This document shows, piece by piece, positions 4,016 through 21,689 of a DNA stretch of 64,000 nucleotides. The position numbers and the translations under genes were made by a program. Location: assembly GCA_034401795.1 (NCBI GenBank), contig CM067367.1:51724884-51788883 (forward strand). Direction: 5' to 3'. Source of the DNA: Chaetoderma sp. LZ-2023a. Taxonomy: Eukaryota; Mollusca; Caudofoveata; Chaetodermatida; Chaetodermatidae. How positions within the stretch are numbered: position 1 is the first letter of the stretch; every line of letters begins with the position of its first letter. The notes beneath the pieces were generated by a model that was given only the letters and a program-made list of their open reading frames with translations, ran no database searches and was not told the origin of the DNA.

Positions 4016-4019
4016 AGAA

Positions 4020-4570
4020 ATATTCCATATGAATATTTTGAAAATAACTTGATAGGGAGCTGTTAAATTATCTTCAAAATATTTAACAGCATATCTGTAT
4101 GTTTGTCTTGAAATTTGGATTTTGGTCGTAACGTCCCAGCATTCAATTTTAAGAGAAACCTACAGGTAAGCTGTTGACTATTTTTAAAACAAATTCAACA
4201 GGGATATGCTGCTGTCATAGACAGCAACAGCGCACAGTCAAATTTGTTTCAAAATAATTATAAATAACATACTGTATTTTCGTCGAACGAACAAAATGTC
4301 GTGCTTAAAGGGATGCTAATCTCATCCCATACCATTCATTTCCCAACACATTCCTTTATCTGTATAGCAATTACTTCCGTTTTAGCATTGGATTAGTGCT
4401 GAATGTTCCCACAAATGATAGTGCATGATGTCATGTAGGTGCAGACACAGCACATTCTTTGTTATGTAATAATTATGGTGTTGAATATTTTGAAACTTAT
4501 TTAACTGGAAGGTAGGCAACAGTATCCAGTCAAAGTAGTTTCAAAGTATTCAACAACATACATGTATGGT
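4020..4570. repeat. Three degraded cores of palindromic repeat family 1
   Basis: Cores lie at about 4029-4095, 4171-4275 and 4478-4558. Each has arms related to TATTTTGAAACTAATTTGAC and its complement around a short GC-rich loop. The middle copy retains a CTGCTGTCATAGACAGCAAC loop. The copies are diverged and partly deleted. Confidence 0.55.
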
Positions 4571-5392
4571 TGCTTTTATACCGCACTGCCGAACTATAGG
4601 TTGTACATATATGGTTAAGCGTATGTACCGAGGCAGACAGCATAGATTTTTCTGATTGGTCAGAAATTAAATCCCGAGTCTTCATAGATTGTGAGAACGT
4701 ATAAACATTTAGCTATTAATGCATGAATATGTTTCTGTCAGCATAATAAAAAGCCAAAATGGCATGCATATTTTATGTGTGGCATACTATAACGACGGAA
4801 TCGATATTCTAAGATGAGCTGAGTTTTCCTTTAAATAATATGATCTACAAGATGAAATTCTCCACATTACATACCAAATATGTGCTGAATCCATCTTTGT
4901 CCGCATCAAACGCTGGTTCATGGTGGCTAATGGCCCTGACAATGAAATGGTTTTTCCTTGTCAAATATTACGTTAGCAACATTTGAAGTGTATTGTATTT
5001 TACAAATAATCAGATAATAAAGTAAGTTGCCCCTAAATATCGACGAGTATTTTCTAAGATATATATTTGATTTTAATGTGATTACTCTCGGATCAGTAGC
5101 AAGCGTTGTCAGGGGCGTTGTCAAGGGCGGGGTTGACATTTGGCAATATCACCCACTAAATGCCTTGGTTGTCCTACATACAGCAATAGATCTGGTTCTG
5201 CAATTGAGGAATCGAGTCTCTCAGTTAATCATATGACGCCATAATCAATCACATCACGAATGACTCGACTTAGTCCACCTTAAACGGATAATAGTCCGTC
5301 AGGTTGTCGCGAGCAGGTCTATCTGTATGCCTGCGCGTGCGTGCGAGTATGCGCTTGTGTGTACGTACGTGCGTACGTGTGTCTGTATGTAT
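4571..5392. other. No gene recognised
   Basis: Short open frames at 4927-5236 on both strands overlap each other and match nothing I recognise. A CGTGCGTG/ACGT-rich stretch at about 5325-5390 leads into the TATG repeats at the 3' end of the first Penelope-like copy. Confidence 0.4.
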
Positions 5393-5550
5393 GTAATATT
5401 GTAAACGCACCGGCTCAGAATTTTCAAAATTGAAAAAAATTGAAAATATTTTTGCTTATTTTATCACCTGAGATTGTCAATTTTGTTTAATAGATGCCAT
5501 ATGGCCTGATTAGTATACAATGATAAATCATTGATTGATGTTTTGAACAC

Positions 5551-7821
5551 TTATTTGAGTTTCGCTTTTACCAAGATGTCGCGTAGATTAGGATTTTTCT
5601 TAAATGCAATTACTGGACGCTTGTTGAATGGTTGTTTTAAATTGTCCTGTAATTTGTGATACTCATCCTTTAGGATTTTCGCAATTTCAACATTTTTCCG
5701 ATTGTATGTGAGAGTAAATGGGATAATCTCACGTTGATCCGAGAGGCATGGGTCCGAATTTATGCCCCTTGGCCATTGTGTTTCGAGTTCTTTAATCCAA
5801 AACGATTCTCTTAGTGATCTTTGTTTATCAGTTTCCTCTGTTGTGTCTGAAAGAGGTAGCTGTTCGATGGGCATAATTTCAAAGTCACGGGTGACTAAAT
5901 GATCAGGAAGATTAAAATGTTCAGCCACATGTGTGTCTTCCTCTAGTCTAATATCTGAAAGGTGTCTGGTTGCTCGGCATCTTAGTCGATTTTTTGTTTC
6001 GCCAACATACTGCTTTTGACACAATTTGCATGAAATTAAGTAAATGACATTTTCAGAATCGCAATCTAATTTCGACTGAATTTGAAATTTGCTTTTGTTT
6101 TGAAAGCTCGTGAATGTACTCTGGGAAGGAAGAAATTTATCCAATTTACACCTTTTCTTTTCACATTTCCGAGATTCTCCTTCACCAATAATCGGACGAT
6201 TATGACAAATTTTGGTAGGCCGAGAATTTCTGGCATTATCTGGAATGATTTCCAAATTATGCAAAGTTTCAGACTTTATTTTGCGCAGGAACCGAGAAGA
6301 GTACCCTCTCGGTTTGAGGGCTTTGAATAAGGTCGAACATGATGATTCAAAGTTTTTCTTATCACTCGAATTTCTATGAAAACGGATTATTTGTGATTTT
6401 ACAAGTCCCTTGAAAGTATGCGGAGGATGGAATGATTTCTTGTGTAGTAGTTGATGCGAGTCGGTTGGCTTAAAATAAACTTTGTAGTCTAAGTAACCAG
6501 TTGTTTCATACTTTATACCTTTGTATAAAGTTACATCTAGGAAATCTACGGACAGCTCATCGATTTGAGCTTTTAGTTTGATATTCGGATCATGATTATT
6601 CAGAATGGCCAGAAATTCGGTAAATGCTTCCTTACTATGTTGCCAGATCATGAAAATATCATCGAGGTACCTGCGGTAAATGAGCGGCTGATTTGGACAG
6701 TTTTCGAGTGCTTCCTTTTCCCACTCTGCCATGTAAAGGTTAGCGAAACCTGGGCTGAAACGCTTACCCATTGCGCAGCCACAAATTTGTTGAAAAATTT
6801 CACCAGCAAATTCAAAGTCATTGCCCTTCAGACTAAGCTCTAATAGAGCTATTACTTCTCTGTCGGGCCTGTTGGTGTCAGGATAGTCGGCAAATGCTCT
6901 ACGAATTGAATTTAGACCCTTTTCGATGTCAATGTTTGTGTACATAGCATCGACGTCCATTGTAATTAAGAATGAATTTGGAGGGACCGAGATCTTAGAG
7001 ACCTGGGCTAGGAAGTCTTCAGTGTTTTTCAGATAGCTAAAATGTCTATTTGCAATTGGCTGAAGATGGTAGTCGATAAATTCACTAATCCTATATGATT
7101 CCGAACCACAATCTGAAATAATGGGTCGCCCTGGTGGAGTCATTGGGTCGGTCCACGAGTCAATAGACTTATGGATTTTAGGAAGAAGATAAAATGTACG
7201 TGGTTTCGAATCATCTTTTGCGCACAGGTATTTATATTGCTTTTCAGTTATCTTCTTGTTATCAACCATTTTTTGGAGAATTTTGTTGAATTTGCTACAG
7301 TTATTTTGCCAAAGTGGTTCATTTAGTTTTTGGTAATGCTTCGGATTACTAAGCTGTCTATGCGCTTCTTTGATGTAGTGGTCTTTATCCATTATTACAG
7401 TAGCCGATCCTTTATCCGCAGGTTTGATGACAATTTCACTTTTTCTAGATAAACCTAATAGGGCCTGGCGTTGCTCATAAGATAAATTTTGCTGATCGTT
7501 TGGAAATGTAGTATTTTCAATACGTTCAGAGTAAAGTTTTATACTTTCACCGATTGCTGGGTCAACACATTTTAAGTTTGGAGCCCAGCCAGTTTTTTCA
7601 ATGAATAGTGGAATATTACTATTGGAGTTTTGAAAAAAATCAGCTAATTTCACACGGTGACCAAATTCAGCAGTTTCAGTAAAGCCATTATCTAAATCTG
7701 CATCCAAACCTGTTTTATGTTTTGGTGTTGGGACAAAAGTCAAGCCAAAATTAAGCAGTGACTGTTCTGCTTCGCCTAATGCGGAGCCGGTTAAGTTTAC
7801 AATATTACTACCCAGTCCCAT
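5551..7821 (-). CDS. Penelope-like ORF2: reverse transcriptase with GIY-YIG endonuclease (copy A)
   Basis: 756 aa, uninterrupted. Visible landmarks are PADKGSATVIMDK (about residue 134), PRTFYLLPKIHKS (about 206), RT motif A LITMDVDAMYTN (about 287), motif B GCAMGKRFSPGFANLYM (about 346) and motif C YRRYLDDIFMIW with catalytic YLDD (about 383). A Cys/His linker (CHNRP...CEKKRC) follows. The C-terminal GIY-YIG nuclease runs from about residue 590 (VIYLISCKLC, QYVGET, then RATRH and AEHF). RT plus C-terminal GIY-YIG is the canonical Penelope-like architecture: the nuclease nicks the target and RT copies the RNA. The ATG used here lies 33 nt past the end of the TTTAAAC heptamer at the end of ORF1. 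The frame is open back to that heptamer, so the protein may be made as a fusion with ORF1. Compared with B and C, copy A has RLRCR rather than PLRWR in the nuclease. Confidence 0.93.
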   Translation of the reverse strand: MGLGSNIVNLTGSALGEAEQSLLNFGLTFVPTPKHKTGLDADLDNGFTETAEFGHRVKLADFFQNSNSNIPLFIEKTGWAPNLKCVDPAIGESIKLYSERIENTTFPNDQQNLSYEQRQALLGLSRKSEIVIKPADKGSATVIMDKDHYIKEAHRQLSNPKHYQKLNEPLWQNNCSKFNKILQKMVDNKKITEKQYKYLCAKDDSKPRTFYLLPKIHKSIDSWTDPMTPPGRPIISDCGSESYRISEFIDYHLQPIANRHFSYLKNTEDFLAQVSKISVPPNSFLITMDVDAMYTNIDIEKGLNSIRRAFADYPDTNRPDREVIALLELSLKGNDFEFAGEIFQQICGCAMGKRFSPGFANLYMAEWEKEALENCPNQPLIYRRYLDDIFMIWQHSKEAFTEFLAILNNHDPNIKLKAQIDELSVDFLDVTLYKGIKYETTGYLDYKVYFKPTDSHQLLHKKSFHPPHTFKGLVKSQIIRFHRNSSDKKNFESSCSTLFKALKPRGYSSRFLRKIKSETLHNLEIIPDNARNSRPTKICHNRPIIGEGESRKCEKKRCKLDKFLPSQSTFTSFQNKSKFQIQSKLDCDSENVIYLISCKLCQKQYVGETKNRLRCRATRHLSDIRLEEDTHVAEHFNLPDHLVTRDFEIMPIEQLPLSDTTEETDKQRSLRESFWIKELETQWPRGINSDPCLSDQREIIPFTLTYNRKNVEIAKILKDEYHKLQDNLKQPFNKRPVIAFKKNPNLRDILVKAKLK

Positions 7822-7825
7822 TTCT

Positions 7826-7860
7826 GGGTGGTTGGTACCTTGACCCGAGTTTAGTTTAAA
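7826..7860 (-). promoter_or_regulatory. Candidate -1 ribosomal frameshift signal (copy A)
   Basis: Heptamer TTTAAAC at 7860-7854 is positioned in the ORF1 frame as T TTA AAC, directly before the ORF1 stop TAA. Re-pairing one base back gives TTT AAA CTA AAC TCG, which is open and leads into ORF2. A 7-nt spacer is followed by a possible bulged hairpin: GGGT (7846-7843) with ACCC (7829-7826), and GGT with ACC around a 4-nt loop ACCA. T TTA AAC is a canonical slippery site. Confidence 0.65.
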
Positions 7861-8624
7861 TTAAGGGCCACAAGCCAGTTATTATACATGTCATTTGCTG
7901 TCCTCTCAGTCCAATGAATATTGTCATGACCCACTTCGAATTCTGTCGAAGCAAGACTGGGTATGACAATAACCCTGGACTCAGGGGATTTGGCCTTGCT
8001 TGACGCGGCAGTCCGATTAATTGCATCGAGTGCCTGCTTTTGCTGAGGTGTCGAGGTTGCGGAGAAATTTAGTTCAGTGAAGTAGATCCTAGACTTGGGA
8101 AATTTCTTTCGTACCATACTGAATAATAACCTAAGTCGATACTCGGAGGCTGAGATCAGATTATTCCTATCATTTATTCCTATGGTGAGGACTACTTTCT
8201 CAGGTTGCAATTTCCCTGTGTATTTATTAATGATCGTTCTGAGATCATTAATCGATGCTCCAGGGAAACAGGCAACCTGAGTATCTGGATGGGGATCCAC
8301 ATTAATCCGACTCAAGTTTGAATCTCCGACGATCAAGATCTTTTTGTCGATGGTCGGAAGTTGCCAATTTGGTTTGTTGGTGGCCTCATTCCTGAATTTC
8401 CAGAACTTATTCTGTTCCAAGGGTGTGGGCTTCTTTGGTCTGGCGCATGGAGATGGTGTGGATCGTGGTTGAGGGACCTTTTGTGCAGCTCGGGTCCTTG
8501 GACCCGGCTGTTTACTAGCACCTTTGGCATTTGACACCCTCTGCGGAAGAGGAGGAAAATCCTCAGGAGAGAATGGTGGCGCTGGTGGAGGTGAATCTGG
8601 TAGAGGGATCATAGAGGGGTCCAC
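7851..8624 (-). CDS. Penelope-like ORF1, C-terminal part: SGNH/GDSL hydrolase (copy A, 5'-truncated)
   Basis: About 257 aa from a GTG codon. The frame is open further upstream to the TATG tract near 8664, so this is the remainder of a longer ORF1 (compare copy B). It begins with a Pro-rich stretch (MIPLPDSPPPAPPFSPEDF). An SGNH-hydrolase domain follows with all four blocks: ILIVGDSN (nucleophile Ser), FPGASIND (Gly), LTIGINDRN (Asn) and HDNIHWTE (Asp and His). SGNH hydrolases are esterases or lipases. Esterase-like domains are known in ORF1 of some CR1-type LINEs and in rotifer terminons, so a role in element RNP or membrane association is possible but unproven. It ends NLN-stop on the TTTAAAC heptamer. 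Its last base is 29 nt before the ORF2 ATG. Confidence 0.88.
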   Translation of the reverse strand: MDPSMIPLPDSPPPAPPFSPEDFPPLPQRVSNAKGASKQPGPRTRAAQKVPQPRSTPSPCARPKKPTPLEQNKFWKFRNEATNKPNWQLPTIDKKILIVGDSNLSRINVDPHPDTQVACFPGASINDLRTIINKYTGKLQPEKVVLTIGINDRNNLISASEYRLRLLFSMVRKKFPKSRIYFTELNFSATSTPQQKQALDAINRTAASSKAKSPESRVIVIPSLASTEFEVGHDNIHWTERTANDMYNNWLVALNLN

Positions 8625-8663
8625 TGGAATGTAAATACTGTGGTCACTGGATGTGCCAGGAAG

Positions 8664-8778
8664 ATGTATGTATGTATGTATGTATGTATGTATGTATGTA
8701 TGTATGTATGTATGTATGTATGTATGTATGTATGTATGTATGTATGTATGTATGTATGTATGTATGTATGTATGTATA
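8664..8778. repeat. (TATG)n microsatellite joining copies A and B
   Basis: Nearly perfect TATG repeats lie between the truncated 5' end of copy A and the 3' end of copy B. An equivalent tract caps the 5' end of copy C. Confidence 0.95.
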
Positions 8779-8933
8779 TGATATTGTCAAACGCACTGGC
8801 TCAGAATTTTCAAAATTGAAAAATTGAAAAAATTCTTGTTTATTTTATTCCTTGAGATTGTCATTTTGTTTTAGAGACGCCATATGGCCTAATTGTCACA
8901 CAATGATAAATCACTGAGTGGTATTTTGAAAAC

Positions 8934-11090
8934 CTATTTCAGTTTGGCTTTTACTAAGATGTCACGTAGATTCGAATTTTTCTTAAATGCAATTACTGGG
9001 CGCTTGTTGAAAGGTTGTCTGAGATTGTCCTGTAAGTTGTGATATTCCTCTTTTAGGATTTTGGCAATTTCAACATTTTTCCGATTGTATGTGAGAGTAA
9101 ATGGGATAATCTCTCTTTGATCTAAGAGGCCTGGGTCAGAATTTATGCCCCTAGGCCATTGTGTTTCTAATTGTTTAATCCAGAATGATTCTCTTAGTTT
9201 TCTTTGTTTATCAGTTTCCTCTGTTGTGTCTGAAAGAGGTAGCTGTTCGATAGGTATAATTTCAAAGTCACGAGGGACTGAATGATCAGGAAGATTAAAA
9301 TGTTCAGCCACATGTGTGTCTTCCTCTAGTCTAATATCTGAGAGGTGTCTAGTTGCACGCCATCTTAGTGGATTTTTGGTTTCGCCGACATACTGCTTTT
9401 GACACAATTTGCATGAAATTAAATAAATTACATTTTTAGAATCACAATCTAAAATTGACTGAATTTGAAATTTGCTTTTGTTTTGAAAGCTTGTGAATGT
9501 ACTCTGGGAAGGAAGAAAACCATCCAATTTACACCTTTTCTTTTCGCATTTCCGAGATCCTCCTTCACCTACAATCGGACGATTATGACAAATTTTGGTA
9601 GGCCGAGAATTTCTGGCATTATCCGGAATGAGTTCCAAATTACGCAAAGTTTCAGACTTTATTTTACGTAGGAACCGAGAAGAGTATCCTCTCGGTCTGA
9701 GAGCTTTGAATAAGGTCGAACATGATGATTCAAAGTTTTTCCTATCACTCGAATTTCTATGAAAGCGGATTATTTGTGATTTTACAAGTCCCTTGAAAGT
9801 ATGTGGTGGATGGAATGATTTCTTGTGCAGTAGTTGATGGGAGTCGGTTGGCTTAAAATAAACTTTGTAGTCTAAGTAACCAGTTGTTTCATACTTTATA
9901 CCTTTGTATAAGGTTACATCCAGGAAATCTACGGACATCTCATCAATTTCAGCCTTTAGTTTGATATTCGGATCATGATTGTTCAGAATGGCTAAAAATT
10001 CATTAAATGCTTCTTTAGTATGTTGCCAGATCATGAAAATGTCATCCAGGTACCTGCGGTAAATGAGTGGCTGATTTGGACACCTTTTGAGTGCTTCCTT
10101 TTCCCACTCAGCCATGTAAAGGTTAGCAAAACCTGGGCTGAAACGCTTACCCATTGCACAGCCACAAATTTGTTGGAAAATTTCACCAGCAAATTCAAAG
10201 TCATTGCCTTTCAGACTCAGCTCCAATAGAGCTATTACTTCTCTGTCAGGCCTGTTGGTGTCGGGGTAGTCGGCAAATGCTCTACGAATTGAATTAAGAC
10301 CCTTTTCGATATCAATGTTTGTGTACATAGCATCGACGTCCATCGTAATTAAGAATGAATTTGGAGGGACCGAGATCTTAGAGACCTGGGCTAGAAAGTC
10401 TTCAGTGTTTTTCAGATAGCTAAAATGTCTATTTGCAATTGGCTGAAGATGGTAGTCGATAAATTCACTAATCCTATATGATTCCGAACCACAATCTGAA
10501 ATAATGGGTCGCCCTGGTGGAGTCATTGGGTCGGTCCACGAGTCAATAGACTTATGGATTTTAGGAAGAAGATAAAATGTACGTGGTTTCGAATCATCTT
10601 TTGCAAAGAGATATTTAAATTGCTTTTCAGTTATCTTCTTGTTATCAACCATTTTTTGGAGAATTTCGTTAAATTTGCTACAGTTATTTTGCCAAAGTGG
10701 TTCCTTTAGCTTTTGGTAATGTTTCGGATTACTAAGCTGTCTATGTGCTTCTTTGATATAGTTATTTTTATCCATTATTACAGTAGCTGATCCTTTATCC
10801 GCAGGTTTAATAACAATTTCATTATTTTTAGATAACCCTTGTAGGGCCTGGCGCTGCTCATAAGATAAATTTTGCTGATCATTTGGAAATGTTGTATTTT
10901 TAATACGCTCTGAGTACAGGTTTATACTTTTACCGATTGCTGGGTCAACCAGTTTCAAATTTGGTGCCCAGCCTGTTTTCTCAATGAATGGTGGAATGTT
11001 GCCATTCGAGTTTCGAAAAAAATCTGCCAATTTGATGCGGTGACCAAATTCAGCAGTTTCAATAAGGCCATTTTCTAAATCTGCATCCAA
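8934..11090 (-). CDS. Penelope-like ORF2: reverse transcriptase with GIY-YIG endonuclease (copy B)
   Basis: 718 aa counted from the first internal Met. The frame stays open upstream to the heptamer at 11243-11237. At the position of the ATG used in A and C the codon is ATT, so the N-terminal residues (IGLGSNIVNLAGS) are encoded but have no start codon of their own. Motifs A (MDVDAMYTN), B (GCAMGKRFSPGFANLYM), C (YLDD) and the GIY-YIG region (VIYLISCKLC, QYVGET) are all intact. No internal stops. Start-codon loss with an otherwise intact frame fits translation as an ORF1-ORF2 fusion by frameshifting. It could also simply mean that this copy is defective. Confidence 0.92.
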   Translation of the reverse strand: MDADLENGLIETAEFGHRIKLADFFRNSNGNIPPFIEKTGWAPNLKLVDPAIGKSINLYSERIKNTTFPNDQQNLSYEQRQALQGLSKNNEIVIKPADKGSATVIMDKNNYIKEAHRQLSNPKHYQKLKEPLWQNNCSKFNEILQKMVDNKKITEKQFKYLFAKDDSKPRTFYLLPKIHKSIDSWTDPMTPPGRPIISDCGSESYRISEFIDYHLQPIANRHFSYLKNTEDFLAQVSKISVPPNSFLITMDVDAMYTNIDIEKGLNSIRRAFADYPDTNRPDREVIALLELSLKGNDFEFAGEIFQQICGCAMGKRFSPGFANLYMAEWEKEALKRCPNQPLIYRRYLDDIFMIWQHTKEAFNEFLAILNNHDPNIKLKAEIDEMSVDFLDVTLYKGIKYETTGYLDYKVYFKPTDSHQLLHKKSFHPPHTFKGLVKSQIIRFHRNSSDRKNFESSCSTLFKALRPRGYSSRFLRKIKSETLRNLELIPDNARNSRPTKICHNRPIVGEGGSRKCEKKRCKLDGFLPSQSTFTSFQNKSKFQIQSILDCDSKNVIYLISCKLCQKQYVGETKNPLRWRATRHLSDIRLEEDTHVAEHFNLPDHSVPRDFEIIPIEQLPLSDTTEETDKQRKLRESFWIKQLETQWPRGINSDPGLLDQREIIPFTLTYNRKNVEIAKILKEEYHNLQDNLRQPFNKRPVIAFKKNSNLRDILVKAKLK

Positions 11091-11208
11091 ACCAATTTTG
11101 GGTTTCGGAGTTGGTACAAAGGTTAAACCAAAATTAAGCAGCGATTTTTCGCTTTCGCTTAACTGAGAACCAGCTAGGTTGACAATATTACTGCCTAGTC
11201 CAATTTCT

Positions 11209-11243
11209 GGGTGGCAACTACCTTGACCCGAATCTAGTTTAAA
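11209..11243 (-). promoter_or_regulatory. Candidate -1 ribosomal frameshift signal (copy B)
   Basis: TTTAAAC at 11243-11237, in ORF1 frame T TTA AAC, is directly followed by the ORF1 stop TAG (TAA in A and C). The -1 frame reads on through CTA GAT TCG GGT into ORF2. The 7-nt spacer is kept, and so is GGGT/ACCC. The inner stem changes from GGT/ACC to GGT/GCC (a U-G pair) while the 4-nt loop changes completely (ACCA to AGTT). Changes that preserve pairing support a real structure. Confidence 0.65.
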
Positions 11244-12793
11244 TTAAGGACATTTAGCCAATTGCTATAGATAGTGTTAGCAGTCCCCTCAGTCCAATGT
11301 ATATTGTCACGACACACACTGAAATCTGCGATTGGCAGGCGTGGTATGACAGTAACCTTGGACCTAGGGGACTCTGCAATTCGATTAATTGCCTCAAGAA
11401 TTTCCTTCTGGTTGGGGGTCAAGGTAGCTGAAAAGTTTAATTGGCTGAAATAAATCATAGTTTTAGGGAATTTCTTCCTTATCATGCTGAACATCAATCT
11501 CAGTCGAGTCTCAGTGTCTGAGAGTGGACTGTTCCGGTCATTGATACCTATATTAAGGATCAGTTTCTCAGGATGGACTGACCCTGTGTATCTATTAATG
11601 ACAGTTCTTATGTCATTAATAGATGCACCAGGGAAGCAGGCCACCTGTATGTCCGGATGCGGGTCTACGTTGATTCGGCTGAGATTTGATGCTCCCACAA
11701 TCAAGATTTTTTTACACATAGTGGGAAGCTGCCAATTGGGTCTATTTACAGACTCGTTCCGGAATTTCCAAAAGGTGTTCTTCTCTAGCTCAGTGGGACG
11801 GGTGGGTCTTCTGGGCTTACAAAACGGAGATGGGGTGAAATGAGGTTGTGGAATCTTTGCTACAGGTGGCTTTTCACGTGATGATTTTCCACCAGCTACA
11901 CGCTGTGGTAGTGATGGAAAATCATCAGGTGAAAATGGCGCCATAGGGGATGATGGGGATTCGGGTAGTGGAATCAAGTATGGGTCTACTGGCGAAATGA
12001 CACTAACAACGGGTTCAGAGCGTTTTCTGCGTGATGATCTTCCACCAGCTACGCGCTGTGGTAGAGGTGCAAGATCATCACGCGGAAACGGTGACATAGG
12101 GGGTGGTGGTGGCGATTCAGGGAGAGGGATCAAGAGCGGGTTAACAGGCGAATAATTACAAGGGGACGGTCTGTCATTTAGACGTTTAAGGGGTGGTGAA
12201 ACCTCAGTGGGCGATCTTACTCTCTTCCTAGCCTGGGAGGGTGGAGCCACACATGTCCGTTCGACTGTTGGTTTACGTTTCGGCGTAACATTTTTTGTGC
12301 CAACAGTCGAACGGAAATGTGGGTCAATAGGCCTAATGAAGTTATAAAATGCTGCAATAGCGCTTCCACTGAGCTTTCTACCATGGTTGTTCTTGGCCCA
12401 GCGGATGGCAATGGACTTAGCCAGGCCGAGGTCAAGGTAGGGATGGTCTTGGGCGGAGAGGATCTGGGACCTTAAACACCCTAGCTGACAGTTATAATGA
12501 CCAATCAGCGTTCTCACCATTGACTTTGCCCACTCAGAGTTCACCGACCAAATGTCAAAGAGGATATCATCATTTGGCATGGCCGGCTTCAGGAACTTAC
12601 TTAGATCCCTTACCTTCTGGCCTAAGCCATTAGGCAAAGTATCCAACCTGAGGTGGTTGTTCAAAATACTAATATGGTGAAAACACTGGATCACCATATA
12701 GTACACCTTGACTAGGCGGGCTTGGGCAGACGGGTGGTGATGCGATTCACATCCCGCACCATCCCCTCGTCTACCTTTGCCCGGTCTGGCCAT
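11234..12793 (-). CDS. Penelope-like ORF1, full length, with C-terminal SGNH hydrolase (copy B)
   Basis: About 519 aa from the ATG at 12793 (MARPGKGRRG). The frame is open 33 nt further but without an ATG. Residues 1 to about 160 form a basic start followed by a helical region I do not recognise. Then come basic segments (RKRVRSP, RRKRSEP) that could be nuclear signals, and two copies of a Pro-rich unit of about 50 aa (LIPLPESPP ... LPQRVAGG). The SGNH domain is C-terminal: ILIVGASN, FPGASIND, LNIGINDRN, RDNIHWTEG. Block I is GAS here rather than GDS as in A and C; the Ser nucleophile is kept. The coding sequence contains a long perfect-like hairpin at 12247-12323. ORF1 ends on TTTAAAC before TAG. 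Confidence 0.85.
   Translation of the reverse strand: MARPGKGRRGDGAGCESHHHPSAQARLVKVYYMVIQCFHHISILNNHLRLDTLPNGLGQKVRDLSKFLKPAMPNDDILFDIWSVNSEWAKSMVRTLIGHYNCQLGCLRSQILSAQDHPYLDLGLAKSIAIRWAKNNHGRKLSGSAIAAFYNFIRPIDPHFRSTVGTKNVTPKRKPTVERTCVAPPSQARKRVRSPTEVSPPLKRLNDRPSPCNYSPVNPLLIPLPESPPPPPMSPFPRDDLAPLPQRVAGGRSSRRKRSEPVVSVISPVDPYLIPLPESPSSPMAPFSPDDFPSLPQRVAGGKSSREKPPVAKIPQPHFTPSPFCKPRRPTRPTELEKNTFWKFRNESVNRPNWQLPTMCKKILIVGASNLSRINVDPHPDIQVACFPGASINDIRTVINRYTGSVHPEKLILNIGINDRNSPLSDTETRLRLMFSMIRKKFPKTMIYFSQLNFSATLTPNQKEILEAINRIAESPRSKVTVIPRLPIADFSVCRDNIHWTEGTANTIYSNWLNVLNLN
12247..12323. repeat. Long hairpin inside ORF1 coding sequence
   Basis: The left arm contains GTCCGTTCGACTGTTGG (to 12271). 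The right arm from 12300 is its complement, CCAACAGTCGAACGG, followed by AAATGTGGG which pairs with CCACACAT. The stem is about 22-24 bp with a 28-nt loop. Inside the loop TTACG and CGTAA can pair as well. It encodes part of the linker before the Pro-rich units. Confidence 0.75.
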
Positions 12794-12829
12794 AGTGTAC
12801 TTCTTAGTCAGGAAAATCCCAGTCAATCA

Positions 12830-13265
12830 ATCAATCTTAATTAATCTTAACTAACCTTAATTAATCTTAATCAATCTCGATTAATCCAGATTAATCTCAA
12901 TCAGTCTTAATCAATCTTAATTAATCTTAATTAATCTTAATCAATCTCAATCAATCTCAATCAATTTCAATCAATTTCAATCAATTTCAATCAATTTCAA
13001 TCAATTTTAATTAATCTGTCGCTCCCTCAATCTGTCACTCACACACTCAAACAACCAATCAATCTATCTATCTATCAATCAATCAGAAACACTCATAATC
13101 GATAAACCCGTTAATCACGCAATCATTCAATCATTCAATCAATTAATCAACCAACCTGACAAACAAGCAACTAATCACAATCAATCAATCAATCACGTAT
13201 TCACGAAATCAGGTCAGACACCATCAACTAATCACTTAATCAGTAGGATACACTCAGACAGTCAA
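12830..13265. repeat. Degenerate (TTAATCAATC)n tract in leader of copy B
   Basis: Repeats of TTAATC/TCAATC variants, densest at 12830-13020 and then looser CAATCAAT runs to about 13265. They lie between the hammerhead-like motif and the ORF1 start of copy B, so they are probably part of its 5' leader or an insertion there. Sequence 13265-13549 is AT-rich with no other feature. Confidence 0.7.
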
Positions 13266-13549
13266 TCAGTTAACAATGTAAACAGGCCCACACTACAAAT
13301 CTTGACAGATGGGCTGTCTTTATATTTCCTAATTCAAGAGGGGTTAACTTACAGAGCTGAAATGGAAGGAATATGGTTAGTAGCAATGATTAATGACATG
13401 TTAATATTTAATACCTAGGAACAATCAATACAGGAATAACAATATAAATATTATAACTTACTCACAGCAATACAGGAATAGAGTAATATCCAGAAATACA
13501 CAGAAATACACAGGAATACACAGTAATGAAATTTTTCACATCGTCAGAG

Positions 13550-13589
13550 GGCTGGACGCGTTTCGTGTTGATACACTTCTTCAGCAGCC
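13550..13589 (-). ncRNA. Hammerhead-ribozyme-like motif (type I layout), copy B 5' region
   Basis: Read on the minus strand: stem I GGCTG, core CTGAAGA (matches CTGANGA), one extra A, stem II GTGT with loop ATCA and ACAC, then GAAACGCGTC (core GAAA, mini stem III ACGCGT, cleavage after GTC), then CAGCC closing stem I. Minimal hammerheads with tiny stem III are known in Penelope-like elements. The extra A between the core and stem II departs from the consensus, so activity is uncertain. Cleavage would leave an RNA starting CAGCC, 757 nt before the last base ahead of the ORF1 ATG. Confidence 0.6.
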
Positions 13590-14147
13590 TATTAGACAAA
13601 TCTACCAGTCCAACAGTTTGCCCTACTATTTATTGGGCAAGTGAATCTTTTTGAGACTTAATCATTTTCTTTAAAGTTACTAAGTTGTTTGCTTTGAGGT
13701 ACACGCCGCTAATAAGGTGTTATAATTCATTGTACTAATGTATTGTTGACTAATTGAGCTCTGGATAAACAAGTTGGTTTCAATTTGGAAAGGTGTTAAA
13801 GATTGAGCTACTTTCAATGGCTTAGCGGCGGACTGCTCACTGGTTCAAAGAGAACTAATAATCTGACTTTGATGTGAACCGTGAGATCATTTGAAAGGTG
13901 CTTAAGTGACCTTTTCAAAGTATAATAAATAATTTGGAACGCAAAGGAAACATTTCAAAGAAATCCGTGACTGATGGCCTTGTTTGAAAATCTTTGATCT
14001 GAATGAGTAATTTTGATTTTAAATGTTTTTGCTTTGTAACATAATTACTCAAATGTCAACAGTTTCCATAGGTATTGATTTCAAAGATTATCATTGTGTT
14101 GAGAAATAAAGTCATTTTCTGTGTGTAATTTTTCTCTCTAAAACAGA
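13590..14147. other. No gene recognised
   Basis: AT-rich sequence upstream of the hammerhead-like motif of copy B. It could include remains of a further tandem element end, but no match to the visible element ends was seen. Confidence 0.4.
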
Positions 14148-14199
14148 TTAATGAACAAACAAATCGCATGATTGAATGATACAAGGATAGAAGGAAAGA

Positions 14200-15090
14200 A
14201 TGGACATAGCTAACCAATTACCAAACCAATCAACCACCCACCCAACGAACCACCCAACCAACCACCCAATCAACCACCCAACCACCCAACCATCCAACCA
14301 CCCAACCATCCACCCACCCAACAAATCACGCAACCAATCAACCAGCCAACCAAAACCCCAACCAAACACCCAACCAACCACCCATCCACCCAAACAAGCA
14401 ACCAACCATCCAATCCACCACCCAATCAACCAACCAACCCACCATGATGGAAGAATGGAGGGAAAGCTGGGAGGAAGGGTATGGGGAGGAAATATAGGAG
14501 GAATGAGAGCTTTGAAGGGAGGATGGGATGATAGAAGGAAGGAAAGATGAAAGGGATGAAGGCCGGAAGGAAGGAAGGAAGATATGGAGAGGGAGGAATG
14601 AATGAATGAAGGGATGGAGAGGGAGGAATGAATGAAGGGAGGAAGGAGGGAGGGAGGAAGTGGGGCGGAAGGAGGAGGCAGGGTGGAAGGAACGAACGAA
14701 CGAACGAACGAACGAACGAACGAACAGACGGACAGACGGACAGACGGACAGACGAACGAACGAACGAACGAACGAACGAACGAACGAACGAACGAACGAA
14801 CGAACGGACGCACGGACGAACGAACGAACGAACGAACGAACGAACGAACGACCGAACGAACGAACGAACGAACGAACGAACGAACGAACGAACGAACGAA
14901 CGAACGAACGAACGAACGAACGAACGAACGAACGAACGAACGAACTGAGGTGGATGGAAAGCAGGAAGGAAGGCTGAAAGGAATGAAGGAATAAGGGAAA
15001 GAGTGAATGAATGAAGGGAGGAAGGACAGAATAACGGATAGAAGGAAGGAAGGATAGAGGGAGGAAGGATGGGCTGAACGACAGTTTTCT
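14200..15090. repeat. Block of (ACCCAACC)n, GGAAGGA and (GAAC)n repeats
   Basis: CCAACCACCCAA repeats at about 14210-14445 and GGAAGGAAGG/GGGAGGAA-type purine sequence at 14450-14690. A long (GAAC)n tract interrupted by GGACAGAC units runs from 14690 to 14945, then purine-rich sequence. Long frames here on both strands (poly FVRS, NERT) are artefacts of the tetranucleotides. 15090-15279 holds nothing recognised. Confidence 0.92.
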
Positions 15091-15436
15091 TGCTCAAACA
15101 ATCATGCAATTCAAAAAGTGATAATAGGTTCAATTTAACCCTTTATGAGATTTCTATATACCTTTTACTAGGTGGATCTATTGAAGGACTGATAGATTGC
15201 CTGACGATGTGGACGAATATTATATACAAGTGGATTTATAAAGTAATAAAATAACGAAACTGGCACTGGCAAGTATGTATATGATATTGTCAAACGCACT
15301 GGCTCAGAATTTTCAAAATTGAAAAATTGAAAAAATTCTTGTTTATTTTATTCCTTGAGATTGTCATTTTGTTTTAGAGACGCCATATGGCCTAATTGTC
15401 ACACAATGATAAATCACTGAGTGGTGTTTTGAACAC

Positions 15437-17707
15437 TTATTTGAGTTTGGCTTTTACTAAGATGTCACGTAGATTAGGATTTTTCTTAAATGCAATTACT
15501 GGGCGCTTGTTGAAAGGTTGTCTGAGATTGTCCTGTAAGTTGTGATATTCCTCTTTTAGGATTTTGGCAATTTCAACATTTTTCCGATTGTATGTGAGAG
15601 TAAATGGGATAATCTCTCTTTGATCTAAGAGGCCTGGGTCAGAATTTATGCCCCTAGGCCATTGTGTTTCTAATTGTTTAATCCAGAATGATTCTCTTAG
15701 TTTTCTTTGTTTATCAGTTTCCTCTGTTGTGTCTGAAAGAGGTAGCTGTTCGATAGGTATAATTTCAAAGTCACGAGGGACTGAATGATCAGGAAGATTA
15801 AAATGTTCAGCCACATGTGTGTCTTCCTCTAGTCTAATATCTGAGAGGTGTCTAGTTGCACGCCATCTTAGTGGATTTTTGGTTTCGCCGACATACTGCT
15901 TTTGACACAATTTGCATGAAATTAAGTAAATGACATTTTCAGAATCACAATCTAAAATTGACTGAATTTGAAATTTGCTTTTGTTTTGAAAGCTTGTGAA
16001 TGTACTCTGGGAAGGAAGAAAACCATCCAATTTACACCTTTTCTTTTCGCATTTCCGAGATCCTCCTTCACCTACAATCGGACGATTATGACAAATTTTG
16101 GTAGGCCGAGAATTTCTGGCATTATCCGGAATGATTTCCAAATTATGCAAAGTTTCAGACTTTATTTTACGTAGGAACCGAGAAGAGTATCCTCTCGGTC
16201 TGAGAGCTTTGAATAAGGTCGAACATGATGATTCAAAGTTTTTCTTATCACTCGAATTTCTATGAAAGCGGATTATTTGTGATTTTACAAGTCCCTTGAA
16301 AGTATGTGGTGGATGGAATGATTTCTTGTGCAGTAGTTGATGGGAGTCGGTTGGCTTAAAATAAACTTTGTAGTCTAAGTAACCAGTTGTTTCATACTTT
16401 ATACCTTTGTATAAGGTTACATCCAGGAAATCTACGGACAGCTCATCGATTTGAGCTTTTAGTTTGATATTCGGATCATGATTATTCAGAATGGCTAAAA
16501 ATTCATTAAATGCTTCTTTAGTATGTTGCCAGATCATGAAAATGTCATCCAGGTACCTGCGGTAAATGAGTGGCTGATTTGGACACCTTTTGAGTGCTTC
16601 CTTTTCCCACTCAGCCATGTAAAGGTTAGCAAAACCTGGGCTGAAACGCTTACCCATTGCACAGCCACAAATTTGTTGAAAAATTTCACCAGCAAATTCA
16701 AAGTCATTGCCCTTCAGACTAAGCTCTAATAGAGCTATTACTTCTCTGTCGGGCCTGTTGGTGTCAGGATAGTCGGCAAATGCTCTACGAATTGAATTTA
16801 GACCCTTTTCGATATCAATGTTTGTGTACATAGCATCGACGTCCATCGTAATTAAGAATGAATTTGGAGGGACCGAGATCTTAGAGACCTGGGCTAGAAA
16901 GTCTTCAGTGTTTTTCAGATAGCTAAAATGTCTATTTGCAATTGGCTGAAGATGGTAGTCGATAAATTCACTAATCCTATATGATTCCGAACCACAATCT
17001 GAAATAATGGGTCGCCCTGGTGGAGTCATTGGGTCGGTCCACGAGTCAATAGACTTATGGATTTTAGGAAGAAGATAAAATGTACGTGGTTTCGAATCAT
17101 CTTTTGCGCACAGGTATTTATATTGCTTTTCAGTTATCTTCTTGTTATCAACCATTTTTTGGAGAATTTTGTTGAATTTGCTACAGTTATTTTGCCAAAG
17201 TGGTTCATTTAGTTTTTGGTAATGCTTCGGATTACTAAGCTGTCTATGCGCTTCTTTGATGTAGTGGTCTTTATCCATTATTACAGTAGCCGATCCTTTA
17301 TCCGCAGGTTTGATGACAATTTCACTTTTTCTAGATAAACCTAATAGGGCCTGGCGTTGCTCATAAGATAAATTTTGCTGATCGTTTGGAAATGTAGTAT
17401 TTTCAATACGTTCAGAGTAAAGTTTTATACTTTCACCGATTGCTGGGTCAACACATTTTAAGTTTGGAGCCCAGCCAGTTTTTTCAATGAATAGTGGAAT
17501 ATTACTATTGGAGTTTTGAAAAAAATCAGCTAATTTCACACGGTGACCAAATTCAGCAGTTTCAGTAAAGCCATTATCTAAATCTGCATCCAAACCTGTT
17601 TTATGTTTTGGTGTTGGGACAAAAGTCAAGCCAAAATTAAGCAGTGACTGTTCTGCTTCGCCTAATGCGGAGCCGGTTAAGTTTACAATATTACTACCCA
17701 GTCCCAT
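15437..17707 (-). CDS. Penelope-like ORF2: reverse transcriptase with GIY-YIG endonuclease (copy C)
   Basis: 756 aa, uninterrupted, with the same domain order as copy A: motif A MDVDAMYTN, motif B GCAMGKRFSPGFANLYM, motif C YLDD, Cys linker, then GIY-YIG (VIYLISCKLC, QYVGETKN). Residues 1 to about 365 agree with copy A. From about EALKRCPNQP onward most variant positions agree with B (PLRWR, GEGGSRK, LDQREIIPF), with patches returning to A (KAQIDELSVDF, NLEIIPDN, KKNPNLRD). It is therefore a mosaic of the other two. ATG is present 33 nt past the TTTAAAC heptamer. Confidence 0.93.
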   Translation of the reverse strand: MGLGSNIVNLTGSALGEAEQSLLNFGLTFVPTPKHKTGLDADLDNGFTETAEFGHRVKLADFFQNSNSNIPLFIEKTGWAPNLKCVDPAIGESIKLYSERIENTTFPNDQQNLSYEQRQALLGLSRKSEIVIKPADKGSATVIMDKDHYIKEAHRQLSNPKHYQKLNEPLWQNNCSKFNKILQKMVDNKKITEKQYKYLCAKDDSKPRTFYLLPKIHKSIDSWTDPMTPPGRPIISDCGSESYRISEFIDYHLQPIANRHFSYLKNTEDFLAQVSKISVPPNSFLITMDVDAMYTNIDIEKGLNSIRRAFADYPDTNRPDREVIALLELSLKGNDFEFAGEIFQQICGCAMGKRFSPGFANLYMAEWEKEALKRCPNQPLIYRRYLDDIFMIWQHTKEAFNEFLAILNNHDPNIKLKAQIDELSVDFLDVTLYKGIKYETTGYLDYKVYFKPTDSHQLLHKKSFHPPHTFKGLVKSQIIRFHRNSSDKKNFESSCSTLFKALRPRGYSSRFLRKIKSETLHNLEIIPDNARNSRPTKICHNRPIVGEGGSRKCEKKRCKLDGFLPSQSTFTSFQNKSKFQIQSILDCDSENVIYLISCKLCQKQYVGETKNPLRWRATRHLSDIRLEEDTHVAEHFNLPDHSVPRDFEIIPIEQLPLSDTTEETDKQRKLRESFWIKQLETQWPRGINSDPGLLDQREIIPFTLTYNRKNVEIAKILKEEYHNLQDNLRQPFNKRPVIAFKKNPNLRDILVKAKLK

Positions 17708-17711
17708 TTCT

Positions 17712-17746
17712 GGGTGGTTGGTACCTTGACCCGAGTTTAGTTTAAA
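17712..17746 (-). promoter_or_regulatory. Candidate -1 ribosomal frameshift signal (copy C)
   Basis: TTTAAAC at 17746-17740, in ORF1 frame T TTA AAC, directly before ORF1 stop TAA (17739-17737). The 7-nt spacer and the GGGT/ACCC plus GGT/ACC hairpin are identical to copy A. The -1 frame is open into ORF2. Confidence 0.62.
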
Positions 17747-18510
17747 TTAAGGGCCACAAGCCAGTTATTATACATGTCATTTGCTGTCCTCTCAGTCCAA
17801 TGAATATTGTCATGACCCACTTCGAATTCTGTCGAAGCAAGACTGGGTATGACAATAACCCTGGACTCAGGGGATTTGGCCTTGCTTGACGCGGCAGTCC
17901 GATTAATTGCATCGAGTGCCTGCTTTTGCTGAGGTGTCGAGGTTGCGGAGAAATTTAGTTCAGTGAAGTAGATCCTAGACTTGGGAAATTTCTTTCGTAC
18001 CATACTGAATAATAACCTAAGTCGATACTCGGAGGCTGAGATCAGATTATTCCTATCATTTATTCCTATGGTGAGGACTACTTTCTCAGGTTGCAATTTC
18101 CCTGTGTATTTATTAATGATCGTTCTGAGATCATTAATCGATGCTCCAGGGAAACAGGCAACCTGAGTATCTGGATGGGGATCCACATTAATCCGACTCA
18201 AGTTTGAATCTCCGACGATCAAGATCTTTTTGTCGATGGTCGGAAGTTGCCAATTTGGTTTGTTGGTGGCCTCATTCCTGAATTTCCAGAACTTATTCTG
18301 TTCCAAGGGTGTGGGCTTCTTTGGTCTGGCGCATGGAGATGGTGTGAATCGTGGTTGAGGGACCTTTTGTGCAGCTCGGGTCCTTGGACCCGGCTGTTTA
18401 CTAGCACCTTTGGCATTTGACACCCTCTGCGGAAGAGGAGGAAAATCCTCAGGAGAGAATGGTGGCGCTGGTGGAGGTGAATCTGGTAGAGGGATCATAG
18501 AGGGGTCCAC
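17737..18510 (-). CDS. Penelope-like ORF1, C-terminal part: SGNH/GDSL hydrolase (copy C, 5'-truncated)
   Basis: About 257 aa from a GTG codon with the frame open to the TATG tract. It differs from copy A ORF1 by one residue that I noticed (PRFTP against PRSTP). SGNH blocks are complete: ILIVGDSN, FPGASIND, GINDRN, DNIHWTE. The upstream Pro-rich stretch matches the second Pro-rich unit of copy B. The N-terminal half found in B is missing. Confidence 0.88.
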   Translation of the reverse strand: MDPSMIPLPDSPPPAPPFSPEDFPPLPQRVSNAKGASKQPGPRTRAAQKVPQPRFTPSPCARPKKPTPLEQNKFWKFRNEATNKPNWQLPTIDKKILIVGDSNLSRINVDPHPDTQVACFPGASINDLRTIINKYTGKLQPEKVVLTIGINDRNNLISASEYRLRLLFSMVRKKFPKSRIYFTELNFSATSTPQQKQALDAINRTAASSKAKSPESRVIVIPSLASTEFEVGHDNIHWTERTANDMYNNWLVALNLN

Positions 18511-18550
18511 TGGAATGTAAATACTGTGGTCACTGGATGTGCCAGGAAGA

Positions 18551-18652
18551 TGTATGTATGTATGTATGTATGTATGTATGTATGTATGTATGTATGTATG
18601 TATGTATGTATGTATGTATGTATGTATGTATGTATGTATGTATGTATGTATG
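18551..18652. repeat. (TATG)n microsatellite at 5' end of copy C
   Basis: Nearly perfect TATG repeats start in the same sequence context (GTGCCAGGAAGA) as at the 5' end of copy A. 18653-18960 downstream is unique sequence without a recognised feature. Confidence 0.95.
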
Positions 18653-18959
18653 TGTGTGCCTGTCCAGAGCTGTATCTAAAAACTATTTATCCAATTTGGC
18701 TCAGATTTTAGCGAAACGAAGGAACTTTCCAAGATGATTTCCAAACATTGGCCGTGATCCAGTTAAAGGAACCCAGATTCGGATCGGAACAAATTCTGGA
18801 ATGTGACCATGTCAGTGGATTCCACAACAAAGAAATCTAAAAAATCCGAGAAAAATGTGGAAATCCGAAAAAATTCGGAAAATCCGACAACTATTTACAA
18901 TGTGAGTAAACGGAATGGCGAGGGTCTGCAATCTCTGATTGCTCTTATCCTGTTTTTGT

Positions 18960-19227
18960 TGTTTTGTTGTTGTGATTTTTATTGCCGAGGCGGCGGTGGC
19001 TGTGGTGGTGGCTGCGGTGGTGGTCGTGGTGGTGATGATGGCGGTGTTAATGTTGTTGTTGGTAGTGGTGGCGGTCGTGGTGGTAATGTCCTTAGTGCTG
19101 GTGATCGTAAGCCTAGTGGTGCCGGTCGTCTTTATCATTATCGTCGTCGACATCATCATCATCATCGTTACCATCATCATTGCCGCTGTCGTCGTCGTTG
19201 TGGTCATGGTGATGATGATGATGATGA

Positions 19228-19261
<34 letters not shown>

Positions 19262-19285
19262 ATTGGTGTTGTTGCCGTCATTGTC
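18960..19285. repeat. GGT/GTT/CAT/GAT trinucleotide-rich region
   Basis: GTGGTGGTGG, CATCATCAT, GATGATGAT and (GTT)n runs. Open frames on both strands (poly-Val, Gly-rich, Asn/Thr-rich) are artefacts. 19285-19608 has no recognised feature. Confidence 0.85.
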
Positions 19286-19604
19286 GCTGCTATTGTCTTT
19301 CCTGTTTTTGCATACATACTCTTCGACCAATTTGCAAATCTCCTTGATACCGGGTAATTTGCAAATGCTTGGTAGAGCGAAAACCTATTAAAATAAACAG
19401 AAAGAATGATATTAATAGGGAGCGATACTGTGAAAAGATCGGTAACTAGAAAAATATTAATATGAATATGAACAATACCATCAGAGTAAATTATTGCAGA
19501 CACTACTCTAGGTCAGGAGCCGGTTCTCAAATTCTCAGGAGAGGCCTAATTAAGTTAATACAACACGCACACGAGCGCGCAGGCATACACGCATGTACGC
19601 ATGC

Positions 19605-19605
<1 letters not shown>

Positions 19606-19682
<77 letters not shown>

Positions 19683-19690
19683 AAGCAGTA
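19606..19690. repeat. (AGT)n microsatellite
   Basis: About 25 units of AGT/GTA, giving a poly-Ser frame on the plus strand. Not coding. 19697-19840 holds nothing recognised. Confidence 0.95.
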
Positions 19691-19843
19691 GCAGTAGATA
19701 TAATTATATATTTAACATAGAGAGAACAAGGTTACAAACCTGTTTTTTCGATAAGGCATTTTGAAACCTGGCACGTATGCCACCCTAAGAGAGAAAAAAG
19801 ATTTAATCAGTTATGTACTCAGGTATCGCGTTTAACAGATGGG

Positions 19844-19912
19844 TGTGCCTGCCGACGGACCATGAGGGATATGGACGTGTGTCCATCTCATTTGTGGTCC
19901 GTCGGTAGGTAT
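19844..19912. repeat. Inverted repeat (hairpin) of about 69 bp
   Basis: The left arm CCTGCCGACGGACCATGAG and right arm CTCATTTGTGGTCCGTCGG with TAGG are near-complementary. The centre GGACGTGTGTCC is itself self-complementary. It resembles a small foldback element. 19915-20633 contains no supported gene. Confidence 0.65.
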
Positions 19913-20631
19913 GCTTGTCCGTCGAACGGACTGACAAACCAATCAACAAATGGACAGACTGACGGACAATTCTGGGCACAGCAAGCTGCTGGAGTACGCT
20001 TAAGCAATGTACTTGGCCCCACATGCTCAGTCTTCTCAGATGGGATTTTAAACTGAGGTCCCGTCATACAGTGCTCATCACTGAACGTGAGCTAGGGCGA
20101 GGTAGGCAAGAAATTTCGGCATAATTAAAGTAAACCGGATGCTGAATGGATTCGTCCTCGGACGGAATCACGCAACATACGGATTACAAAATCAAAACAA
20201 TATTGCTAGAATTAGAATCTTTCGGACTTATTCAATGGGTCTATGGAGGGATGCAACCCGGATGACTGATTGAGTTCGTCCTCGGCCAAAACAATCAAAA
20301 TCAAACAAGTGCGCGCTGGTGCCTGCTTCAGATGATAGCCAGAAGGTCAAATGGGTCTCAGGACCCTAAAGACCCCAAACCCCACCCTCCCCGCACCCCA
20401 AAATGGCCGAGAGGTCTCTGACCTAAAGCCCTCATAGGGTACATGAGGTCATATGACCGCACGCACCCCACCCACGCAGCACCTACCCCATCCCCTTCCG
20501 CAAGCCCGTTAGGCCCCGGTTAGGCCCTCGCCACCCCCACGCCCAAGCATGAGGAGCAAAAGAACAGCCATGGTCAAGAACAGTACATGCCATCTTCAAC
20601 ATGAGACAAATCGAGCGACAACGACCAACAC

Positions 20632-20745
<114 letters not shown>

Positions 20746-20959
20746 AAGCTAATGCACAAACCTACGTCACAAGAATTCACAAGAATTCAACAGAAAACAC
20801 AAAAACACAAAGGCCAGGCGTGAGTCTAGACCCTAGCGCTGGGAACTAGCAAATAAACGCCTTAAAGATTACAACACGCACAGGTATCGCGTTTTATCCG
20901 GCATTCACAGAAAATGTCGAATTTTGTAACTGACTACGCCTTACCTCGGTACCTACAAT

Positions 20960-21335
20960 GGAGGATTCCAATTTCTCAGTCAATCATATGACCTCATAAT
21001 CAACTACGTGATATGTAGGATTGCGTCATGAATGACGTAGCTAAGTTCGCCACGAAAGCTTAATTGATGATGGACTAATCGTTGTTGTACGAATTGCATG
21101 TCTTTAATAAACATGCTGTTTAATATTTTGAAACTAATTTGACTGGGCGGTGTTGTTGCCATAGGCAGCTACAGCACCCAGTCAAATTAGTTTCAAATGA
21201 TATATAACAGCTTACCTATATAGTTTTCTGGAAATTGATAGTCAGGCAGTCCAGGGATCGATCGATCCCGACGCTGTCGCAATATGGGCGGAGCTTAGCT
21301 AAAGATGGGCGGGGCATAGCTAAACCTAGATTCCT
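20960..21335 (+). repeat. Palindromic repeat family 1, copy at 21.0-21.3 kb
   Basis: A well-preserved copy: left flank ATCATATGACCTCATAATCA, then TTGTACGAATTGCATGTC, core at 21113-21205 (TTTTGAAACTAATTTGACTG, loop GTTGTTGCCATAGGCAGC, complement arm), then GGAAATTGATAGTCAGGCAG, GATCGATCGATCCC, and two GGGCGGAGCTTAGCTAA-type blocks. The flank also gives a false 72-aa frame at 21235-21453. Confidence 0.75.
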
Positions 21336-21689
21336 CCAAAAACTGTTTAATTTTTCTCATTCCAACTGTACAGATCCAGTACAACAAATTATTTTCAGAG
21401 TACGTCATATTACGTTGAATACCGGCAATCTTAGATCACACATATTCAACTGAATACGTCGTACTTTGCTAATCTTAATTTTACTGTCAGCCATTGATTG
21501 ATGTCAATCAAATTAATTCAGGAAATCGTCATCATCGTATGTATTTGATTTCTTTTAAATTGCGAGACTGATGTCGTATGTTTGAAAATGTTAAAGCTGT
21601 GTGGAATATAGGCCTACTGCTGTACTAGAGTGCGTGTCTGTATTAACGCTTTAACTGTCACAGACCGCAAAAGCGAAATTCTTTTTGAT

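Follow-up and report, generated by a model that had tools for sequence, protein, structure and literature searches.

A predicted −1 ribosomal frameshift at the ORF1-ORF2 junction of two-ORF Penelope-like elements in Chaetoderma

Penelope-like elements (PLEs) are a class of retroelements related to telomerase and are usually described as having a single open reading frame (ORF). Here we report three copies (A, B and C) of a PLE with two ORFs, all located on the minus strand of a 64,000-nucleotide stretch of DNA from the mollusc Chaetoderma sp. LZ-2023a (contig CM067367.1, positions 51,724,884 to 51,788,883; assembly GCA_034401795.1, 2.44 Gb), which is referred to as the window. An ORF1 with an SGNH esterase domain and an ORF2 with reverse transcriptase (RT) and endonuclease domains meet at the heptamer TTTAAAC, a candidate site of −1 ribosomal frameshifting. 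The features of the three copies are as follows (positions in the window; − denotes the minus strand).

8934-12826 (−): copy B, whole stretch, the only window copy with a long ORF1
11237-12793 (−): copy B ORF1, coding sequence that begins with MARPGK and excludes the stop codon
11237-11243 (−): copy B slippery heptamer T TTA AAC, in the ORF1 frame
11234-11236 (−): TAG stop codon of copy B ORF1, immediately 3' of the heptamer
11209-11229 (−): copy B possible, weak bulged hairpin, 7 nucleotides 3' of the heptamer
8934-11243 (−): copy B ORF2 in the −1 frame, RT and GIY-YIG domains, 769 codons, first Met at codon 157
5551-8786 (−): copy A, whole stretch, 5'-truncated
7851-8786 (−): copy A ORF1 frame, truncated at its 5' end and entering a (TATG)n tract
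7854-7860 (−): copy A heptamer
7826-7846 (−): copy A possible hairpin (GGGT/ACCC, GGT/ACC)
5551-7860 (−): copy A ORF2 in the −1 frame, 769 codons, first Met at codon 14
15437-18675 (−): copy C, whole stretch, 5'-truncated
17737-18675 (−): copy C ORF1 frame, truncated at its 5' end where copy A is truncated
17740-17746 (−): copy C heptamer
15437-17746 (−): copy C ORF2 in the −1 frame, 769 codons

The junction and the two ORFs in the window

The ORF1 frame ends in AAT TTA AAC TAA in copies A and C and in AAT TTA AAC TAG in copy B, which confirms the initial annotation of this DNA, in which ORF1 was said to end in T TTA AAC followed at once by a stop codon (7854-7860, 11237-11243 and 17740-17746, minus strand). 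The junction of copy B (CCT TAA TTTAAAC TAG in RNA sense) is read as CTT AAT TTA AAC TAG in the ORF1 frame and as TAA TTT AAA CTA GAT in the ORF2 frame. ORF2 lies in the −1 frame and is open from the heptamer into the RT protein, as annotated: a TAA stop stands immediately 5' of the heptamer and is followed by 769 open codons. The two frames overlap by only ten bases, TTTAAACTAG, so that a −1 shift could join them nowhere but at the heptamer. TTTAAAC was found 15 times in the window (14.7 expected by shuffling) and exactly once in each of the three element stretches, each time at the junction. Since its frequency is as expected, it is position and phase that argue against chance.

The pattern had been attributed to all three copies and is indeed present in each, but A and C do not differ anywhere in the junction or in ORF2 codons 1-160 and have a common 5' truncation point; they are thus not independent and amount to one observation. 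Probably, one of them was derived from the other rather than both by separate insertions. The truncation falls at the same ORF1 residue, beside a (TATG)n tract (8660-8780 and 18530-18675), and copy B, too, enters the TATG repeat at its 3' end. The copies show a tandem or partial-tandem arrangement, with head-to-tail matches at a period of ~6.3-6.8 kb. Copies A and C, identical up to ORF2 codon 160, thereafter differ with a synonymous divergence (dS) of 0.14 (5551-17746, minus strand), and the dS between B and C is 0.5-0.8 in the first 160 codons and 0.07 beyond them. This mosaic divergence suggests template switching or recombination between families.

ORF1 of copy B consists of 530 codons from stop to stop (519 from the first Met) and encodes an N-terminal helical domain, a middle part modelled with low confidence, and a C-terminal SGNH esterase domain. 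The Pfam Lipase_GDSL_2 match falls below the family cut-off; the only sequence match of the ORF1 profile in the PDB at an E-value threshold of 0.01 is 4c1b, an ORF1-encoded protein (E-value 4e-8), presumably the zebrafish ZfL2-1 esterase. The AlphaFold model (mean predicted local distance difference test score, pLDDT, 72; means of ten-residue blocks at least 87 from residue 351) matched SGNH/GDSL hydrolases in Foldseek, and the catalytic blocks (G367, S369, N370, G416, N418, D496, H499) are invariant in the 15 aligned ORF1s. ORF2 of copy B has a GIY-YIG match and an RVT_1 match of 29.5 bits, just under the Pfam cut-off of 29.6, and each of the two domains was matched in 16 of the 18 aligned ORF2s. 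The element was placed among the PLEs because of these domains and of sequence similarity.

Conservation in the host genome and in relatives

All 97 distinct host-genome junctions that were read carry TTTAAAC, have LN at the end of the ORF1 frame, and place ORF2 in the −1 frame. These belong to four families: A/C (21 junctions: two in the window, L046-L048, L050, L051, L083-L091, L093 and L095-L098), B (33: L001-L030, including the window copy, and L100-L102), F2 (27: L031-L035, L052-L071 without L054, L092, L094 and L099), and F3 (16: L041-L045, L049 and L072-L081). L082 and L047 are one copy and count once. The junctions were chosen from the best-scoring matches and are probably those of young copies, near identical within each family. 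The underlying searches gave overlapping lists that include partial matches, with at least 58 host-genome matches for copy B ORF2 and at least 58, 59, 86, 97, 104 and 74 for the relatives P0003, P0009, P0122, P0124, P0125 and P0126, respectively; some of the P0009 matches fall on F2 and F3 loci already known. Intact copies that lack the heptamer or carry ORF2 in another phase, named at the outset as what would speak against frameshifting, were not encountered among the 97 copies of the four families. The 16 regions fetched in search of additional families (six from P0124, two from P0125 and eight from P0126, unusual matches first) all belonged to A/C, B, F2 or F3 and yielded no fifth family; this search scored only the best candidates, and families without the heptamer could have escaped it.

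Within the fetched piece, 92 of the 97 copies have an uninterrupted ORF2, which breaks downstream of the heptamer in the other five; in one A/C copy, it is broken by an extra base soon after the heptamer. Six of 30 B loci have a stop in the fetched ORF1 part, the ORF1 part of F2 copy L034 enters a microsatellite, and the decaying B copy L102 has its ORF1 stop mutated to TAT. The −1 stop of F3 is not adjacent to the heptamer and lies three codons upstream. Of the 58 matches listed for P0003, 57 contain a single TAG in the ORF2 frame; among the first five loci fetched, this TAG directly precedes the heptamer in four, and the fifth (L033, the one stop-free match) has TGG. The F2 junction TAGTTTAAACTA is a perfect palindrome (L031:1801-1812).

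The first in-frame Met of ORF2 is codon 157 in B (30 of 30 loci), 158 in F2, 61 in F3, and 14 in A/C. Met 14 is missing in A/C copy L096, whose −1 frame stays open through the fetched piece. Between copies C and B, nonsynonymous divergence (dN) and dS are 0.13 and 0.81 over ORF2 codons 1-60, and 0.07 and 0.53 over codons 61-160; by the latter comparison, the N-terminal part of ORF2 that would be skipped by initiation at Met is under purifying selection. The first 13 codons differ by two synonymous and four nonsynonymous changes, too few for a dN/dS estimate, and synonymous sites in codons 1-60 are near saturation between C and F2 (dS ~1.6). The invariant residues of the skipped part (18 aligned ORF2s) include F86, P94, N125, K146 and D149; they precede Met 157, and initiation there would thus delete them.

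A constant spacer of 7 nucleotides separates the heptamer from GGGT in all three window copies, as initially described. The stem that may follow (GGGT/ACCC, a CAA bulge, and GGT/ACC) has a folding energy of −5.5 kcal/mol in A/C and −5.6 kcal/mol in B; the F2 version has three outer pairs (−4.7 kcal/mol), and F3 can form GGGC/GCCC plus GGGT/ATCC (−8.9 kcal/mol). The loop of copy B, reported as fully changed, differs at three of its four bases (ACCA to AGTT). The same region also codes for GQG, and a hairpin in the four host families is possible but weak.

Two scans of viral contigs for relatives found none. A scan of genome contigs recovered four (L036-L039), of which L036 and L037 were informative; no esterase ORF was seen upstream in L038, and L039 is fragmentary. 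L036 (ORF2 39% identical) stands on a contig filed under Epulopiscium and is probably host fish DNA in a bacterial assembly. Its SGNH ORF1 ends in TAT TTA AAC TTC AAA GCC CCT TAA, with the stop four codons past the heptamer, and ORF2 follows in the −1 frame with an overlap of ~85 nucleotides and no Met for 370 codons from the heptamer (first Met at codon 371). A strong hairpin lies downstream (z about −3.2 to −3.3 against mononucleotide shuffles). The layout of L036 is independent of the host families. L037, on a contig filed under Enterovibrio, has also kept the −1 arrangement (L037:1040-1100).

The search with ORF2 listed 120 homologs of 1487 matches, of which 46 fit the NxxNL-block pattern and 36 had at least 12 predicted residues before the block. 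FKL precedes the block in 14 of these 36 distant homologs (0.43 expected by shuffling), and [FKG]KL in 19 (14 with F, three with K and two with G), where 2.7 were expected (Fisher test with XKL at other places in these proteins as reference, 4e-11); the classes were set post hoc, and the homologs are related to each other and known from protein only. F, K or G stands before KL in 19 of 23 cases among the distant homologs. As these are the residues encoded by TTT, AAA and GGG, [FKG]KL looks like X XXA AAC read in the −1 frame. An extended signature, [MLV][ADEGV]xx[FKG]KL, is present in 10 of 17 cases, in six of which it begins at the first residue of the protein, as chosen by the gene caller; it is suggestive only, and may be the out-of-frame image of a conserved ORF1 Trp codon.

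ORF1 of B shares 35-65% identity with the ORF1s of the other families, and a profile search for ORF1s gave nine matches, of which one (P0132, weak similarity) was new. Six of the 11 ORF1 relatives (P0121-P0125 and P0127) end exactly in LN, as TTA AAC followed by a stop would give. Among them, P0122 is host family F3 itself and P0121 appears to be the A/C family; P0124 and P0125 come from other genomes, since their best full-length host-genome matches are only 41% and 37% identical. ORF1 relative P0126 carries an inserted PF08719 domain (precomputed Pfam column).

Predicted expression of ORF2 and alternative explanations

The −1 frameshift predicted in the initial annotation is supported by the 97 of 97 junctions, by the Met-free starts of ORF2, and by [FKG]KL in distant homologs. 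Programmed frameshifting that makes an esterase-RT-endonuclease fusion is probably the best explanation of how ORF2 is expressed, because no in-frame ATG is present for 60-370 codons in B, F2, F3 and L036, and because of [FKG]KL. The element is an endonuclease-bearing Penelope-like retrotransposon with two ORFs. Ribosomes would translate ORF1 (helical domain and SGNH esterase), and most would terminate at the stop right after U UUA AAC and release the ORF1 protein; a certain fraction would slip back by one base, re-pair on UUU AAA, and read into ORF2. The predicted product is an ORF1-RT-endonuclease fusion, made in a fixed minority in analogy to Gag-Pol, which may be the working form of the enzyme. 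The downstream hairpin is a possible but weak stimulator, and the stop codon that is next in the A site may also matter.

Termination followed by reinitiation, or internal initiation at a non-AUG codon near the ORF1 stop, would instead yield a separate ORF2 protein. Some non-LTR (long terminal repeat) elements use such stop-start coupling, and it would fit the ORF2-frame ATG that overlaps the ORF1 stop in L037, the ATG at codon 14 of A/C, and a GTG in fair context at codon 5 of F2. We nevertheless consider it unlikely: an ORF2-frame AUG near the stop is absent from B, F2, F3 and L036, the nearest one in A/C is at codon 14, the ATG that abuts the F2 stop (TAAATG) belongs to the frame of ORF1 and not to that of ORF2, and the letter-exact, in-phase TTTAAAC would be left unexplained. 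The probability is smaller still, and in our estimate very low, that the heptamer has no recoding function and is kept only by dual coding (LN in ORF1, FKL in ORF2) or by recent common descent. The copies within each family are indeed young and near identical, and the heptamer would be fully determined if LN and FK were both required; FK is, however, constrained only if it is translated, the sole in-phase entry to it in A/C, B and F2 is a frameshift, and distant homologs also have F, K or G before KL (19 of 23). Joining of the frames at the RNA level by splicing, editing or polymerase slippage is the least credible alternative, because the ORFs abut and leave nothing to remove, and because the donor-like GGTA found just downstream in A/C, B and F3 is GGCA in F2 and missing from the next 50 bases in L036, even though PLEs with spliceosomal introns are known (excerpts of PMC3846280).

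Several observations weigh against frameshifting as the explanation. The 97 copies are near identical within families and represent about four independent observations plus L036. L037 has TTTATGT in place of the heptamer, with TTTATGTTAG forming an ORF2 ATG that overlaps the ORF1 stop; the same place can hence carry a slip site or a stop-start site, and L037 is the main evidence for another mechanism in the wider group. [FKG]KL is lacking in 17 of the 36 distant homologs, several distant homologs have a predicted ATG upstream of FKL, and five of the 11 ORF1 relatives (P0126 and P0128-P0131) do not end in LN. The bulged hairpin, initially presented as a selected structure, can be paired in all three window copies, but is at most a slight indication of selection: pairing amounts to 92.9% of cells on six rows, with two double changes, and 42 of 500 shuffles were as high. 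In addition, the downstream folds of A/C, B and F2 have z values of +0.5 to −2.0 against mononucleotide shuffles, and A/C favours other pairings in longer windows.

By a narrow balance of the evidence, we favour an origin of X_XXA_AAC frameshifting in the ancestor of a broad clade of esterase-bearing PLEs, present in several animal lineages and making a Gag-Pol-like fusion. Such frameshifting would have evolved independently of the retroviral system and would have been replaced, in at least one lineage (L037), by an AUG that overlaps the stop. Judged from its sequence, L037 represents an apparent switch of the expression mode at the same position.

Relation to known elements and other elements in the window

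Like the endonuclease-bearing PLEs (Penelope, Poseidon, Neptune), the element has RT and a C-terminal GIY-YIG domain in one ORF, tandem copies, and 5' truncation. No hammerhead ribozyme was matched in Rfam at the gathering threshold over the window, and none was among the 20 matches of an E-value scan of 3000-22000; the hammerhead motif is common, but not universal, in the pseudo-LTR of PLEs. Canonical PLEs are described with a single ORF (excerpts of PMC3846280 and PMC11167929); unlike them, the element reported here has an esterase ORF1 in front of ORF2, and an ORF2 without a start codon. Its ORF1 encodes the same kind of SGNH-esterase protein as that of CR1/L2-type long interspersed nuclear elements and of some PLEs in Repbase. 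The esterase has been reported from PLEs (PMC3905857), and the available text of that paper is silent on how ORF2 is expressed. PLEs and their esterase ORF1 are thus already known kinds.

The junction resembles the −1 frameshift sites of retroviruses, LTR elements and coronaviruses in having an in-phase X_XXY_YYZ heptamer, U_UUA_AAC, with the downstream ORF in the −1 frame, and in the order of the ORFs, a structural or accessory one followed by that of the enzyme. It differs from them in that it belongs to another class of retroelement, has an SGNH esterase and not Gag upstream, a stop directly after the heptamer, and weak downstream structure. U_UUA_AAC, rightly called a well-known slippery site in the initial annotation, is listed with the heptamers on which mammalian ribosomes shift most readily (PMC5009743, available passages, which do not mention Penelope). 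In the accessible parts of other papers, the frameshifts are decay mutations (PMC3846280, PMC6431247, PMC4465651) or concern gag-pol of LTR elements (PMC5408684), and the Penelope passages of PMC9004415 do not treat expression. No report of programmed frameshifting in PLEs was found in the accessible text of the literature searched, a search that left out a 2021 survey of PLEs and most subscription papers. If the predicted frameshift is true, PLEs share the expression logic of Gag-Pol, in which the enzyme is made as a fixed minority product and fused to an accessory protein; this would explain how two-ORF PLEs work without a start codon for ORF2, and would correct ORF2 annotations that start at the wrong Met.

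The window also contains a Ty3/gypsy-like ORF (46472-49987, plus strand) with an integrase (H2C2 and rve) before the RT, a SCAN-like gag part, and a zinc knuckle. Integrase before RT is the permuted order, as in Gmr1-type elements. Two near-identical open frames of 273 codons (45143-45964 and 51223-52044, plus strand), 6080 bp apart, flank this ORF and may lie within the long terminal repeats of the gypsy-like element.

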